A stretch of DNA of 64,000 nucleotides from a virus, in the IMG/VR virus record IMGVR_UViG_3300036770_004143, positions 62,001 to 126,000 of that record. The stretch is one strand, 5' to 3'. Position numbers and translations under genes: made by a program. A model generated the notes under the pieces. It ran no database searches and was not told where the DNA came from. It saw only the letters and a list, made by a program, of their open reading frames with translations. This document shows, piece after piece, positions 7,765 to 59,218 of this stretch (within the stretch, counting starts at the first letter, position 1; each line of letters starts with the position of its first letter).

Positions 7765-8157
7765 TTATGTATTATAAATATTCCATTGTTTATTTTCCTC
7801 ATCCCAATAATATTGGTTGCCATCATTTGGATAAGGTATAGGTGGTTGCCATAAGCAACTAAATTCATCTAATGTCCAACTTGGGTATGGTTTTGGTGGG
7901 ATGAAAGCGTCCCTTATACTATCGTAATAATAACCTATTCCAGCATAGTTTTTTCTAAATGCCTTGCTTTGGTCAAGGCTTGGTGTATTGTTGTCGGATT
8001 GGTAGTGAATACCACCATGTGTGTTGTAGGATGTGCGTTTATGAACTATACCTAATTCATTAAACCAACCAATTTCACCATCCCAATCATCTTCATGACC
8101 AGCACTCTTCATATCTATTACAAAATTATTTTCATCTAAAACTGCATAATACGCCAT
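7765..8157 (-). CDS. Fibre-partner protein, one-unit version
   Basis: A 130-residue paralog of the partner protein at 3525-4067. I chose the start MAYYAVLDENN at 8157 because it aligns with [11 protein letters not shown] of the paralog; an upstream in-frame ATG at 8178 would add seven residues and overlap the fibre stop. It shares the KRTSYNT.GG.HYQ and RKNYAGIGYYYDSIRDAFIPPKP core but carries only one P-x-P-S-W-x-L ... W unit. DNA identity with the paralog is very high across the core (exact over 40 bases around 7940). It follows the LamG-like fibre gene by 14 bases, so each fibre gene has its own partner gene. Confidence 0.7.
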   Translation of the reverse strand: MAYYAVLDENNFVIDMKSAGHEDDWDGEIGWFNELGIVHKRTSYNTHGGIHYQSDNNTPSLDQSKAFRKNYAGIGYYYDSIRDAFIPPKPYPSWTLDEFSCLWQPPIPYPNDGNQYYWDEENKQWNIYNT

Positions 8158-8171
8158 AATGTTATATTTTA

Positions 8172-54160: not shown

Positions 54161-54592
54161 TTATGAAATGCTTATTGTTTTCTTTCCTGTTTCAACATAA
54201 TTTGGCAAGAATAATGTCAAAATACCATTTGAAACTGTTGCTTCAATATTACCCTCATTTATTTGGTAATTATTCAATTTGAAATTGTGTCTTATTGTTT
54301 TAGTTTCACCCTTCTTGTTAAATACCCTTTTTCCGGTTATCTTTATTTCCTTGTTCTCCAAAACAATTTCCAAATTGTCTTTTGTGTAGCCTGGAACTTC
54401 AAAGGATATATAAGCACCATCCTTGGTTGATTCAATATCATATTCATCATTAAAAATACTACGACTTTGGGTTGATTGTGATGAAATGTTTTGGTCTGAT
54501 GAACTAAAAGGGTTGTAAGTTGAATGTGATGTAAACACAAATGGGCTTGAAGAACCAAATAATAACTCTGCTAAAAAATCTCTCTCTTTCAT
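54161..54592 (-). CDS. Small heat-shock protein, Hsp20 family
   Basis: A 143-residue protein with a full alpha-crystallin domain: DIESTKDGAYISFEVPGYTKDNLEIVLENKEIKITGKRVF (about residues 52-91) and NGILTLFLPNYVETGKKTISIS at the end, where the usual G-x-L motif reads GILTL. The N-terminal 45 residues are Ser/Asn-rich. Hsp20 holds unfolding proteins for ATP-dependent machines. It is divergent from, and shares an operator region with, a ClpC-like gene, so the two probably work together. Confidence 0.9.
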   Translation of the reverse strand: MKERDFLAELLFGSSSPFVFTSHSTYNPFSSSDQNISSQSTQSRSIFNDEYDIESTKDGAYISFEVPGYTKDNLEIVLENKEIKITGKRVFNKKGETKTIRHNFKLNNYQINEGNIEATVSNGILTLFLPNYVETGKKTISIS

Positions 54593-54768: not shown

Positions 54769-54777
54769 ATATTTATA
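54769..54777 (+). promoter_or_regulatory. Late-promoter-like motif ATATTTATA
   Basis: Perfect copy, 14 bases before the clpC start at 54792. Confidence 0.6.
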
Positions 54778-54791
54778 AAAAAACATAAGAT

Positions 54792-56804
54792 ATGAATGTT
54801 GACTATTTTGATGATGAAAAAACAACAAGAGGCAAGAAAAACACCTCTGGTTCAAAAACTCCAGTATTGGACAATTTTAGTAGGGACTTATCCAAATTGG
54901 CTGAGATGGGAAAATTGGATATGTCAATTGGTAGGGAGAAAGAGGTTAAGAGATTGGCTCAAATCTTATCAAGACGAAAAAAGAACAATCCATTAATCCT
55001 TGGTGATGCTGGGTGTGGTAAAACAAACTTAATTGAAGGTGTTGCATTGATGATTTCAAAAGGTGAGGGTCCACAAAATCTATTAAACAAAAGAATTGTA
55101 AATTTAGATTTAACCTCTGTTGTTGCTGGAACTAAATATAGGGGTCAGTTTGAGGAAAGAATGAAAGTAATTCTTGATGAATTGATTGCAAATCCAAATG
55201 TTGTTGTATTCATTGATGAAATACATACATTAATTGGGTCTGGAAACTCATCTAATGCTATGGATGGTGCAAATATATTCAAGCCAGCATTAGCATCTGG
55301 GGATATTCAATGCATTGGTGCAACCACATTTGATGAATTTAAAAAATCAATAGAGAAAGATGGGGCATTAGCAAGGAGATTTCAAAAAATCAAACTTGAA
55401 CAACCTTCAATAAGTGAAACAATTAAAATTGTTAAACAATCTATTGATAAGTATGAATCCTTCCACAAGGCATCATATAGTGATGAGGTTATTGATTTAT
55501 GTGTCAAGATGGCAGATAGATATATTAATGATAGAGCATTTCCTGATAAGGCTTTTGATGTTATTGATGAAGTTGGGGCAAAACTACAAGTTGAGGTTAA
55601 AATACCTGAATCAATTGTAAAATTAAAAGAAAAGATTAATGACTTAAAACAGGAAAAAACAAGAGTTGTTATAAACCAAGAATATGAATTGGCTGCTGAA
55701 ATTAGGGATAAAGAGTTAAAGTTATTAACAAAACTTGAATCTGAAACAAAAAAGTTTGAAGAGGATAAGTTAAAGAATAAGCGAAAGATAGATATTGAAG
55801 ATGTCTATTCTGTTGTTTCAATTATGACAAATATTCCTTTGGAACAAATGAATATTGATGAAAAGCAAAAACTAATAAATTTAGATAAAAAGATTAAGGA
55901 AAATCTTATTGGTCAAGACGCTGCTGTTGAATCTATTACAAGATCAATTAAAAGAAATAGACTTAACATTAAAGACCCAAATAGACCAGTTGGTAGTTTC
56001 ATATTTTTAGGATCCACAGGAGTTGGTAAAACACATTTAGCAAAACAATTAGCCAAACAATTATTTGGAAATGAGAAATCATTGATTAGGGTTGATATGA
56101 GTGAATACCAGGAAAAACACACCATATCAAGATTGATTGGTTCGCCTCCAGGCTATGTTGGTCATGATGAGGGTGGTCAATTGACTGAAAAAGTTAAGAA
56201 TAACCCATATTCAATTATCTTGTTTGATGAGATTGAAAAAGCCCATAAGGATGTATTTAACTTGTTATTGCAGATATTAGATGAAGGTCATTTAACTGAT
56301 AGTCTAGGTAAAACTGTCAATTTCAAAAACACAATCATCATTTTAACAACAAACTTGGGTATCAAAAAATTCCAAGACTTTGGAACTGGAATTAGTTTCA
56401 CATCATCCAAATATGGCAATGAAGTTGCTAAAAAAGAAATGCTAATGAAAGAATTGAAAAAGTTCTTCTCACCTGAATTCTTGAACCGTATTGATGATAC
56501 CATTGTATTTAACACATTGAATGATGAGAATGTTAAAAAGATAACTGAAATTGAACTTAACAAACTAATTACAAGATTAATAGAATCTAATTACATTGTT
56601 TCCTTTGATTCATCTGTTATTGATTTAATTAGCAAAGTTGGATTTGATGACACTTATGGAGCAAGACCAATCAAGAGAGCAATCCAGGATAAGATTGAGG
56701 ATTTAATATCTGATGAGGTTTTAAATGGTTTCATTAAAGAGAATGAACCTTACCACCTAGTGGTTGAAGATGAAAATGTTATAATTAAAAAGGGGGTCGC
56801 TTGA
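54792..56804 (+). CDS. ClpC-like AAA+ unfoldase, no N-terminal Clp repeat domain
   Basis: A 670-residue double-AAA ATPase. D1: GREKEVKRLAQILSRRKKNNPLILGDAGCGKTN (Walker A at 71-78), VVFIDEIHTLIGSG (Walker B). Between the domains a UVR-like motif (KLKEKINDLKQEKTRVVINQEYELAAEIRDKE, about 277-308) as in ClpC. D2: FLGSTGVGKTHLAKQL (about 405-420), ILFDEIEKAHKDVFNLLLQILDEGHLTDSLG, TTNLGIKKF and FFSPEFLNRIDD. The Clp N-domain is missing, so substrates must be recognised by other means. In the D2 region where ClpP partners have an IGF/VGF loop, I see a diverged ISFTSSKYGNE. It lies opposite hsp20, a chaperone pair. A terminator overlaps its stop codon. Confidence 0.92.
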   Translation: MNVDYFDDEKTTRGKKNTSGSKTPVLDNFSRDLSKLAEMGKLDMSIGREKEVKRLAQILSRRKKNNPLILGDAGCGKTNLIEGVALMISKGEGPQNLLNKRIVNLDLTSVVAGTKYRGQFEERMKVILDELIANPNVVVFIDEIHTLIGSGNSSNAMDGANIFKPALASGDIQCIGATTFDEFKKSIEKDGALARRFQKIKLEQPSISETIKIVKQSIDKYESFHKASYSDEVIDLCVKMADRYINDRAFPDKAFDVIDEVGAKLQVEVKIPESIVKLKEKINDLKQEKTRVVINQEYELAAEIRDKELKLLTKLESETKKFEEDKLKNKRKIDIEDVYSVVSIMTNIPLEQMNIDEKQKLINLDKKIKENLIGQDAAVESITRSIKRNRLNIKDPNRPVGSFIFLGSTGVGKTHLAKQLAKQLFGNEKSLIRVDMSEYQEKHTISRLIGSPPGYVGHDEGGQLTEKVKNNPYSIILFDEIEKAHKDVFNLLLQILDEGHLTDSLGKTVNFKNTIIILTTNLGIKKFQDFGTGISFTSSKYGNEVAKKEMLMKELKKFFSPEFLNRIDDTIVFNTLNDENVKKITEIELNKLITRLIESNYIVSFDSSVIDLISKVGFDDTYGARPIKRAIQDKIEDLISDEVLNGFIKENEPYHLVVEDENVIIKKGVA

Positions 56805-56817: not shown

Positions 56818-57630
56818 TTACCTCTTTTCCCTAAAAGATGGTCTTATAACTGGTATATGTTTCTTTTCATATTTTTCATAACCTAGACTTGCAATCATTT
56901 CCCTCCCTATTTTAATCCCATTCTCCACATCTTCTAAAACAACATACTCATCTGGTGTATGATAATCATAATAACCAATGGATATGTTAAGGCAACTAAA
57001 ATCAAATAACTTCTTTAATGCATATACATCTGTATAAGGATGTGAGCCAAACCTGGGGGTTGTATTCTCTACTAATACACTGTTAATCTTATTGAAGAAC
57101 TCACTATCCCTATTAAATAAAGGAACACCAGATGAAATTTCAGTCACCATCCAATCAAAAGGGGCATCAAACTGTATGGCATATCCAACGTTTTTGAAGA
57201 ATTCTGGATCTGCTTTTAATGAACCAATACACCCAATTTCTTCTGATACAAAAAAAGCAGCCTTTAAAACTGGTAATTCTGTCAATAAAGTTAAACAGGC
57301 AAAAACACCAGCTTTATCATCACCCCCAATTCCAGTTGGTTGCCCAATCTTATTATAACCCTTATAAGCCTCTTTTAAGACACCTTTTGAATTTTCCCTT
57401 AGTTCAGTTCTAACATCTATATAAGTGTTGTTGTGGACTGTATCTGTGTGTGCTACAACACAAGGATAGGTTTCTGTTTCACCCTTTGTGCAATATATGT
57501 TGGACATCTTATCAACCTCATATGGTATATTATTCTTTTTTAGAAATTCACATATGTAATTAACTAATTTTAATTCCCTGTCACTATATGATGGAATTGA
57601 TAACACTTCTTTTAATAATTCTTTGTTCAT
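56818..57630 (-). CDS. M20-family metallopeptidase (peptidase T-like)
   Basis: A 270-residue peptidase with the zinc ligands of M20/M28 enzymes: VVAHTDTVH (His61), GIGGDDKAGVF (Asp104), VSEEIGCIGS (Glu130/131), IQFDAP (Asp155) and YYDYHTPDEYV (His224). The typical dimerisation domain is short or absent. Known M20 enzymes trim amino acids or small peptides; peptidase T removes N-terminal residues from tripeptides. Such an enzyme is rare in phages. It may help recycle peptides from host proteins, perhaps those unfolded by the ClpC/Hsp20 pair next door (inference). Convergent with clpC. Confidence 0.85.
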   Translation of the reverse strand: MNKELLKEVLSIPSYSDRELKLVNYICEFLKKNNIPYEVDKMSNIYCTKGETETYPCVVAHTDTVHNNTYIDVRTELRENSKGVLKEAYKGYNKIGQPTGIGGDDKAGVFACLTLLTELPVLKAAFFVSEEIGCIGSLKADPEFFKNVGYAIQFDAPFDWMVTEISSGVPLFNRDSEFFNKINSVLVENTTPRFGSHPYTDVYALKKLFDFSCLNISIGYYDYHTPDEYVVLEDVENGIKIGREMIASLGYEKYEKKHIPVIRPSFREKR

Positions 57631-57654: not shown

Positions 57655-58065
57655 TTAAATTGTTAAAAACTTAATTTCACCACCCTTTTCTTTTATCATA
57701 TCCTTGATTTCTTTGTATGAATATTTTTCAGATAGAGTTGTGTATTTTGCAAACATTGAGTGTGCTTTTAGATTTTTTGGAATTGAATCTATTTCTAAAG
57801 CCGTTAGGTATAAATCACCATCAATAGTTAAATTATCTGGGAGAGTTTTTATTTTTGTCAATCTTAAATCAAGATATCCTTTAACAGTAAAATTGTCTGG
57901 TAATCTTTTTACCCTTGCACCATATAAATCAAAATTATCATCATAAAATAAATCTTTATCATCTATTGAATCAAAATCATTGATTAATTTCCATGTTAGG
58001 GGTGTTCTTTTGTTATCTTTTCCTTCAAGGAATTCAAATATTCTTTTTAATACTTCTTTTTCCAT
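57655..58065 (-). CDS. LPEGLKVGG-repeat protein, cluster 3 member 2 (divergent)
   Basis: A 136-residue divergent paralog with about three degenerate repeats (RLPDNFTVKGYLDLRLTKIK, SIPKNLKAHSMFAKYTTL). N-terminal helix KEVLKRIFEFLEGKDNKRTPLTWKL; C-terminus has YSYKEIKDMIKEKGGEIKF in place of the standard end. The gene starts at the stop codon of the member upstream. Confidence 0.7.
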   Translation of the reverse strand: MEKEVLKRIFEFLEGKDNKRTPLTWKLINDFDSIDDKDLFYDDNFDLYGARVKRLPDNFTVKGYLDLRLTKIKTLPDNLTIDGDLYLTALEIDSIPKNLKAHSMFAKYTTLSEKYSYKEIKDMIKEKGGEIKFLTI

Positions 58066-58535
58066 TATCTAATTATTTTTCCTTTTATAAATCCAGGTTT
58101 AACCATTTCCCTTAATTCATCATCTGAATATTTTGTTAATTTTGTATTACCTATAACCAAAAAAGATTCAACTTCCAAACCTTTTGGTAATGATGTTACT
58201 TTTGTAAATCTTAAATCCAAAGCACCACCAACTTTCAATCCTTCAGGTAATGAAGTTATTGAATCACAACCCAATAACCACAAAATACCACCAACTTTTA
58301 AGTCTTTTGGTAGTGAGGTTATATTAATAGAACCATTTAAATCCAAATCACCACCAACTTTTAAACCTTCTGGTAATGATTTCACTTTTGACCTTTCTAA
58401 ACTAAAATTACCTTTAATATTCAAATCTTTTTTTGTTAATGGTATATTATTTTCCCATTTCCATAAAAATGGTGCTCTATGTTCTTGATTATCTTCCAGG
58501 AATTGAAGTATTCTTTTTAATTGTTCTTTTTCCAT
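58065..58535 (-). CDS. LPEGLKVGG-repeat protein, cluster 3 member 1
   Basis: A 156-residue paralog with four repeats, one of them changed to GILWLLGCDSIT. N-terminal helix EKEQLKRILQFLEDNQEH, C-terminus YSDDELREMVKPGFIKGKIIR. A perfect ATATTTATA lies 18 bases upstream. Confidence 0.8.
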   Translation of the reverse strand: MEKEQLKRILQFLEDNQEHRAPFLWKWENNIPLTKKDLNIKGNFSLERSKVKSLPEGLKVGGDLDLNGSINITSLPKDLKVGGILWLLGCDSITSLPEGLKVGGALDLRFTKVTSLPKGLEVESFLVIGNTKLTKYSDDELREMVKPGFIKGKIIR

Positions 58536-58562: not shown

Positions 58563-58696
58563 ATAAAAAAAACTATTTTTAATACCACATTCAACTAATA
58601 TCACTATAACTAATCTCTTATGTAAAGATAAGTCTTATTATTGACTTTATCATACCCCAAGCAAACTATTTTATTTAAAATAAATGAAAAAAACAT

Positions 58697-58727
58697 TTGG
58701 AAAATCAAAAAAAGGGATGTATATTTG
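58697..58727 (+). promoter_or_regulatory. Bacteroidetes-type promoter before tmRNA
   Basis: TTG (58697-58699) and TATATTTG (58720-58727), spacing 20 bases, 38 bases before the tmRNA. A second candidate, the late-type TATTTATA at 58748-58755, sits closer to the 5' end, so the gene may be made both early and late. Confidence 0.6.
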
Positions 58728-58746: not shown

Positions 58747-58755
58747 GTATTTATA
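58747..58755 (+). promoter_or_regulatory. Late-promoter-like motif GTATTTATA before tmRNA
   Basis: One-mismatch copy of ATATTTATA, nine bases before the mature 5' end of tmRNA at 58765. If it works like T4 late promoters, transcription would start almost exactly at the tmRNA. Confidence 0.5.
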
Positions 58756-58764
58756 CAAAGAAAA

Positions 58765-59186
58765 GGGGACGAAAGGTATCGATTGGCGTGGATTGTGTGA
58801 GTAGGCATGTTGGGGCTGAATTAACCTCATTAACAACTGGTTCAAGCCTTTAACTGGCAACACTTTAGAAACTTTAGCAACTTTAGGCTTAGTGCGTGAA
58901 GATGCTGTTGTTGCAGCTTAGTAGTTGTGACAACCCCAGGTCGGTGGGCATATAACCTAGGAACAGAAGCCTCATAGTGTGATACTACTTATTGTGTCAA
59001 AGGTTTTAGTTTGGGGTGCTACCTGTTAGTCTATGCAAATAGCAGAAGTGAATCCTCCATAGTTGGCAGATCAAATGGCAAAATATGAACTGTCTTATGT
59101 GTCCATACAGAATCTATGGAATAAACATGTAGTCTATTTACTTAATTACGAGCAAGACCAGGGTTCAATTCCCTGCGTCTCCACCA
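58765..59186 (+). ncRNA. ssrA: tmRNA (transfer-messenger RNA)
   Basis: About 422 bases with tmRNA ends: the 5' GGGGACG pairs with CGTCTCC at 59176-59182 (one G-U pair), followed by a discriminator A and an encoded CCA (59183-59186). The T arm, CCAGGGTTCAATTCCCTG, lies just before. The tag reading frame ends CGT GAA GAT GCT GTT GTT GCA GCT TAG TAG (58895-58924), giving ...R-E-D-A-V-V-A-A, an AA-ending proteolysis tag with two stops; the resume codon is not certain. Just upstream are three near-copies of ACTTTAG (58862-58886). It rescues stalled ribosomes and tags the product for proteases such as Clp. It is longer than usual, and no SmpB gene is seen in this window. Confidence 0.93.
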
Positions 59187-59218
59187 ATGGAAGAACCATA
59201 TTATTTGGTTCTTCCATT
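59186..59218 (+). terminator. Terminator after tmRNA
   Basis: AATGGAAGAACCA / TGGTTCTTCCATT form a perfect 13-bp stem (59186-59198 with 59206-59218), starting at the last base of the CCA end. Confidence 0.85.

Follow-up and report, generated by a model that had tools for sequence, protein, structure and literature searches.

The window analysed in this work, a DNA stretch of 64,000 nucleotides, is part of a virus record of 270,075 bases and carries on its plus strand, at positions 58765 to 59186, a tmRNA gene (ssrA) of the one-piece form with an encoded CCA. ARAGORN called a single tmRNA at exactly these positions, with the tag GNTLETLATLGLVREDAVVAA followed by two stop codons, and the Rfam model RF00023 matched the same interval over its full length (model positions 1 to 374) with 87.1 bits and an E-value of 2.1e-32, the gathering cut-off being 47 bits. 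Thus, the complete tmRNA with paired ends, CCA, terminator and tag frame that an earlier note had described from the letters alone was recovered by both programs with identical coordinates, and its fold was accepted by the covariance model. The acceptor stem pairs 58765-58771 with 59176-59182 (7 pairs, GGGGACG/CGTCTCC) and includes the G3·U70 pair that marks alanine identity. The resume signal (58852-58858) consists of an A at position −4 (58852) and the resume codon GGC at 58856. The tag reading frame (58856-58924), found by ARAGORN and under selection at the peptide level in relatives, comprises 21 codons (58856-58918) and a double stop (58919-58924), and an intrinsic terminator, made of a hairpin with a 13-bp stem and a T-rich tail, covers positions 59186 to 59218.

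The claim that the gene is phage-encoded was borne out, since the tmRNA sits in the virus record, which carries T4-type head and portal genes. The source of the tmRNA is a T4-type jumbo phage of 270 kb with a host from the Bacteroidota, although the record may be incomplete. We assigned the host because a Shine-Dalgarno motif precedes only 4% of the phage genes (genes of at least 120 aa), whose upstream bases are A-rich, because a promoter of the Bacteroidota type lies before the tmRNA (see below), and because the cellular ClpC proteins nearest to the ClpC encoded by the phage all belong to Bacteroidota (50-54% identity). By head protein, the nearest named isolates were Microcystis phage Mel-JY01, Flavobacterium phage immuto and Rhodothermus phage RM378, in none of which a full tmRNA match was found. 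Searches against isolate phages with the tmRNA of the window (blastn) and with the consensus tag (tblastn) gave no matches.

In order to follow the gene through related phages, we used the first 24 distinct phage tmRNAs as nhmmer query and recovered the gene in 157 fetched loci. The distinct full-length tmRNAs amounted to 112, 86 from the nhmmer set and 26 from a sister clade. Among 25 diverse relatives, compensatory substitutions, in which both partners change and pairing is maintained, were observed at 34 of 40 consensus pairs, and the G3-U pair was retained in all 25; in a larger set it was retained in 80 of 83 tmRNAs, while acceptor pairs 4 to 7 covary. The long helix H2 and the T stem also covary according to RNAalifold, a program which cannot display the pseudoknots PK1 to PK4. 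The A at −4 of the resume codon was present in 86 of 86 relatives, a count from which the 26 sister-clade tags were left out because the search for their tags itself required this base. It has the same role as A86 of Escherichia coli, which occupies the corresponding position and sets the frame (PMC2481249). On this comparative evidence, the phage tmRNA is functional. That the gene is a stray host gene, an assembly error or a decayed relic without function is vanishingly improbable: the record has T4-type head genes, and the reading is already contradicted by the 112 distinct relatives on phage contigs, since their fold covaries and their tag frame is selected. An origin of the tmRNA as a relic of an integration site was also considered and rejected, there being no integrase among the neighbouring genes examined.

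Phage-encoded tmRNAs have been known previously (PMC4131195), and one survey found them in 402 of 18,146 phage genomes (PMC9004378). The rarity that the earlier note had attributed to them does not hold in this lineage, where the tmRNA is near-universal. ARAGORN detected 25 of the 72 tmRNAs that we found linked to a phage clpC gene and none in loci L384-L386, which may explain why the class has been overlooked.

The 112 distinct tmRNAs encode 58 different tags of 21 to 23 residues (52 of 21, five of 22 and one of 23), and 46 of the 50 tags of the main set have exactly 21. Their consensus is GNTFAKMAALGLTREEAVVAA, with a conserved internal core, GNxFAKMxxLGLxRE. In the 21-residue tags Gly11 is invariant, and K6, L12, E15 and V19 are nearly so. 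In contrast, variation is greatest at the penultimate position 20 (V, A, T, G, E or K), and alanine is the last residue in about nine in ten tags. The tag frame ending in REDAVVAA, as first read, is real and 21 residues long, but the relatives do not conserve the AA at its C-terminus, and the emphasis placed on that ending was misdirected, the conserved part being the internal core. Regarding the classical features of a ClpXP-type ssrA tag, the LAA ending was found in none of the phage tags and a penultimate alanine is not conserved. The pattern of conservation is thus the inverse of the bacterial one. An amphipathic helix formed by the core was considered as well and dropped, as the amphipathicity of the core did not exceed that expected by chance.

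In order to assess selection on the tag, we counted the codon changes that involve a single base along a minimum spanning tree of the tag genes. In frame 0, 110 of 183 changes were synonymous compared to 53 expected, in frame +1 82 of 214 compared to 55, and in frame +2 synonymous changes were depleted (22 of 216, with 37 expected). The excess in frame 0 together with the depletion in frame +2 indicates that it is mainly the frame-0 peptide which is under selection and, as judged from these substitutions, the tag core is kept by purifying selection. These data bear on the possibility that this is an ordinary supplementary tmRNA which only raises the dosage during infection, its tagged products being degraded by host ClpXP as usual and its odd tag being the result of drift. 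Such a role, which would fit with the alanine at the end of most tags and with the tmRNAs known in many other phages (PMC4131195, PMC9004378), is unlikely, since tag length is fixed, purifying selection acts on the internal core but leaves the penultimate residue free (K, E, G, T), and the gene is linked to phage genes for ClpC, a peptidase and SmpB.

The suggestion that the tag is not of the host form was confirmed by comparison with 29 Bacteroidota tmRNA tags predicted by ARAGORN, all of which have 9 or 10 residues and end in LAA or MAA (e.g., GENNYALAA, GNTQYAMAA and DNNNSYALAA). The host tmRNAs share with those of the phages the one-piece form, the alanine as last residue and, in some families, a tag start of GN or GNT; they differ from them in the tag, which in the phages has 21 to 23 residues, an internal core and a variable penultimate residue. 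A degenerate pattern of the phage tag, which matches 67 of the 112 phage tmRNAs and hence has a sensitivity of about 60%, was found in none of 395 Bacteroidota genomes.

Two kinds of promoter-like motifs precede the tmRNA. The first one, TTTG (58696)-N20-TATATTTG (58720), spans positions 58696 to 58727 on the plus strand and resembles a housekeeping promoter of Bacteroidota. The pattern TTTG-N17-21-TAnnTTTG, which is the Bacteroidota promoter consensus, occurred in 86 of 108 distinct upstream regions of phage tmRNAs compared to 0.6 in shuffled sequences. The second one, the octamer TATTTATA at 58748-58755 (plus strand), is a recurrent motif 20-30 nt before start codons that was present in 45 upstream regions of the phage genome, with 2.5 expected, and that also precedes the peptidase gene and clpC (54770-54777, plus strand). 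The two promoter types that had been proposed are thus present as motifs, whereas the early and late expression ascribed to them comes from the motifs only. We also observed that the tight spacing of the octamer before many starts holds genome-wide, structural genes included (e.g., 54770, 57640, 58748 and 59945), and that the T4 late promoter TATAAATA has the octamer as its reverse complement, the two running in opposite senses.

Upstream of the tmRNA, at 54792-56804 on the plus strand, lies a gene for an AAA+ unfoldase of 670 aa (phrog_4871, E 1e-228; Pfam AAA_2, AAA_lid_9 and ClpB_D2-small) with two AAA+ domains. Its alignment to the ClpC structure 6em8 starts only at residue 150 of the latter, and the phage proteins have 666-675 aa compared to 837-895 aa in hosts; by length and alignment the N-domain, which in bacterial ClpC binds adaptors, is absent, hence we refer to the protein as ClpC-type and N-domain-less. 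Apart from this difference, the phage proteins share with bacterial ClpC-ClpP the two AAA+ domains, a UvrB/C-like middle motif, the GIGF loop and the catalytic motifs of ClpP. The GIGF loop, presumed to dock ClpP, was present in 76 of 80 phage ClpCs and reads GISF in the clade of the window. Between clpC and the tmRNA, on the minus strand (56818-57630), is the gene of an M20/M42/PepT-like peptidase of 270 aa (phrog_4191, E 1e-39), which matched the PepT-like model TIGR01883 with an E-value of 1e-9, below the cut-off of the model. A small heat shock protein of the Hsp20 type (PF00011) is encoded at 54161-54592 on the minus strand and is an optional neighbour, present in 19 of 42 loci. Between the peptidase gene and the tmRNA, also on the minus strand, we observed two adjacent genes for paralogous leucine-rich-repeat-like proteins (MEKE.LKRI...; 57655-58065 and 58065-58535), a pair that only 4 of 42 relatives have at this place. 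Beyond the tmRNA, a protein of 536 aa (61488-63098, minus strand) had no PHROG or Pfam match.

In order to see how constant this arrangement is, 80 phage loci were fetched by their ClpC, 72 of which had enough downstream sequence, the other 8 ending within 3.6 kb. All 72 loci with room have a tmRNA downstream of clpC, on the same strand and 2.0-5.7 kb away, the loci being from related phages, so that such counts are not independent events. The peptidase gene lies between clpC and the tmRNA in 42 of 42 loci with both flanks, whereas most other downstream genes were found in 4 of 42. The structural genes upstream are likewise conserved in the 42 loci and, therefore, the island of clpC, peptidase and tmRNA sits at the border of a conserved block. 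In two huge phages of other lineages with a related ClpC, no tmRNA over the cut-off was found. A Mantel test between tmRNA and ClpC distances gave r = 0.35, which is weakly consistent with co-inheritance of both genes.

ClpP was found in all eight phage records tested. In the genome of the window (G000) its gene is located at 129278-129946 of the record, outside the window and 8 kb beyond the tmRNA, and the protein (PF00574, E 1.9e-57) retains the Ser, His and Asp motifs of the catalytic triad. No SmpB was detected in this 270-kb record, which is possibly incomplete. Using the SmpB of one relative as query, we found 52 phage SmpB loci and, as judged on 3-kb flanks, 35 of them have a tmRNA of this class within 2.3 kb. 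In the sister clade, clpC, peptidase, tmRNA and smpB follow each other in this order within about 6-10 kb (L372-L375 and L378-L380), and ClpP was present in 6 of 7 records of this SmpB clade. In one of these loci, L375, additional fragments that resemble ClpC and the peptidase lie in the interval from clpC to the tmRNA (about 8070-8648) and may be duplicated remnants. The genome of the window further contains twelve phage tRNA genes in clusters (G000:C1, 159921-212715), including one called as tRNA-Leu with anticodon AAG.

Taken together, we consider it fairly probable that this is a working phage tmRNA which forms part of a phage-owned module for ribosome rescue and protein recycling with its own class of degron. 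Host RNA polymerase would transcribe the gene from the Bacteroidota promoter, and the RNA would be charged with alanine via its G3-U70 pair. It would then enter stalled ribosomes with SmpB, that of the host in the phage of the window and the phage's own in the sister clade, and the stalled chains would receive alanine and the 21-residue tag. These steps, which we propose because of the conserved anatomy and the known biology of tmRNA, make tagging by the phage tmRNA well supported at the level of comparative sequence data. The tag would represent a phage-specific class of degron with its conserved core internal, rather than the terminal LAA of ClpXP. The likeliest receiver of tagged chains would be the N-domain-less ClpC with the phage ClpP, a routing that we infer from gene linkage and tag conservation, and the linked peptidase may trim the degradation products. 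The likely benefit would be the release of ribosomes from mRNAs of host and virus that are cleaved in the course of infection, with unfinished chains being turned into amino acids. The initial idea that the phage may reprogram proteolysis thus gains the linkage to phage ClpC, peptidase, ClpP and, in relatives, SmpB, while its routing part is as yet an inferred one. We regard as an even proposition the more specific claim of a viral pathway orthogonal to the host, in which the long degron would be read via its internal core by phage ClpC-ClpP and the peptidase would finish the products, feeding phage protein synthesis.

ClpXP of E. coli recognises the tag mainly through its terminal Ala-Ala, and a replacement of one or the other alanine raises KM (PMC7652416). 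Consequently, tags ending in VVKA, VVEA or VVTI should be poor ClpXP substrates by E. coli rules, from which Bacteroidota ClpX may differ; most tags still end in alanine, so host ClpXP might accept some. The poor recognition that the same rules predict for ends other than LAA (PMC7652416) would also suit a stabilising tag, with ribosomes rescued and nascent chains shielded from host proteases. This is, however, distinctly improbable, as a tag of that kind would need neither a conserved 12-residue core nor a linked unfoldase, ClpP and peptidase. The core, being internal and more like a binding peptide than a terminal degron, could also be an address that directs unfinished chains to a compartment or a particle of the phage, or be bound by a dedicated phage adaptor. 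We hold this to be highly improbable since the core shows no amphipathicity above chance level, no partner was identified and the proteolytic neighbours favour degradation.

A module with degradation of tagged chains by phage proteins would have a cellular parallel in Mesoplasma florum, whose long divergent tag is read by its own protease Mf-Lon, orthogonally to E. coli (PMC9097571). Both would combine a divergent tag with an own protease, the phage counterpart being a candidate; they differ in that the former is cellular and uses Lon, whereas the candidate is viral ClpC-ClpP. The tmRNAs of mycobacteriophages of the Bxz1 type, Bacillus phage G and Melnitz are likewise phage-encoded, but these phages are unrelated to the present lineage. 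The tag of phage G, AKLNITNNELQVA, also lacks LAA and is unrelated to the tags described here, and the Melnitz tmRNA is a two-piece form controlled by a riboswitch (PMC9004378). Both tmRNA and SmpB have been reported in huge phages, where they were proposed to help translation (Al-Shayeb 2020; PMC7162821). Those genes, too, are encoded by jumbo phages and the tmRNAs were detected with ARAGORN, but the passages of that report considered here describe neither this tag class nor the island of clpC, peptidase and tmRNA. With respect to the open-licence literature, a class of long and conserved tags, in constant genetic association with phage ClpC and peptidase and, in one clade, also with SmpB, appears to be new. 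In phages, tmRNAs have long been recorded without a clear purpose; since this lineage provides linked parts and a measurably selected tag, their purpose becomes a simple reporter question. Should phage ClpC-ClpP turn out to be the sole reader of the tag, the latter would constitute a new class of degron and a possible tool for orthogonal degradation.

Finally, a tmRNA of only 112 bases, restricted to the tRNA-like domain, was observed at 414804-414915 of the huge phage LR756508.1 (L310), with 58 bits to RF00023, in addition to a full tmRNA at 92434-92880. This short form recalls the mini-tmRNA of DS6A, which reportedly inhibits the tmRNA of the host.
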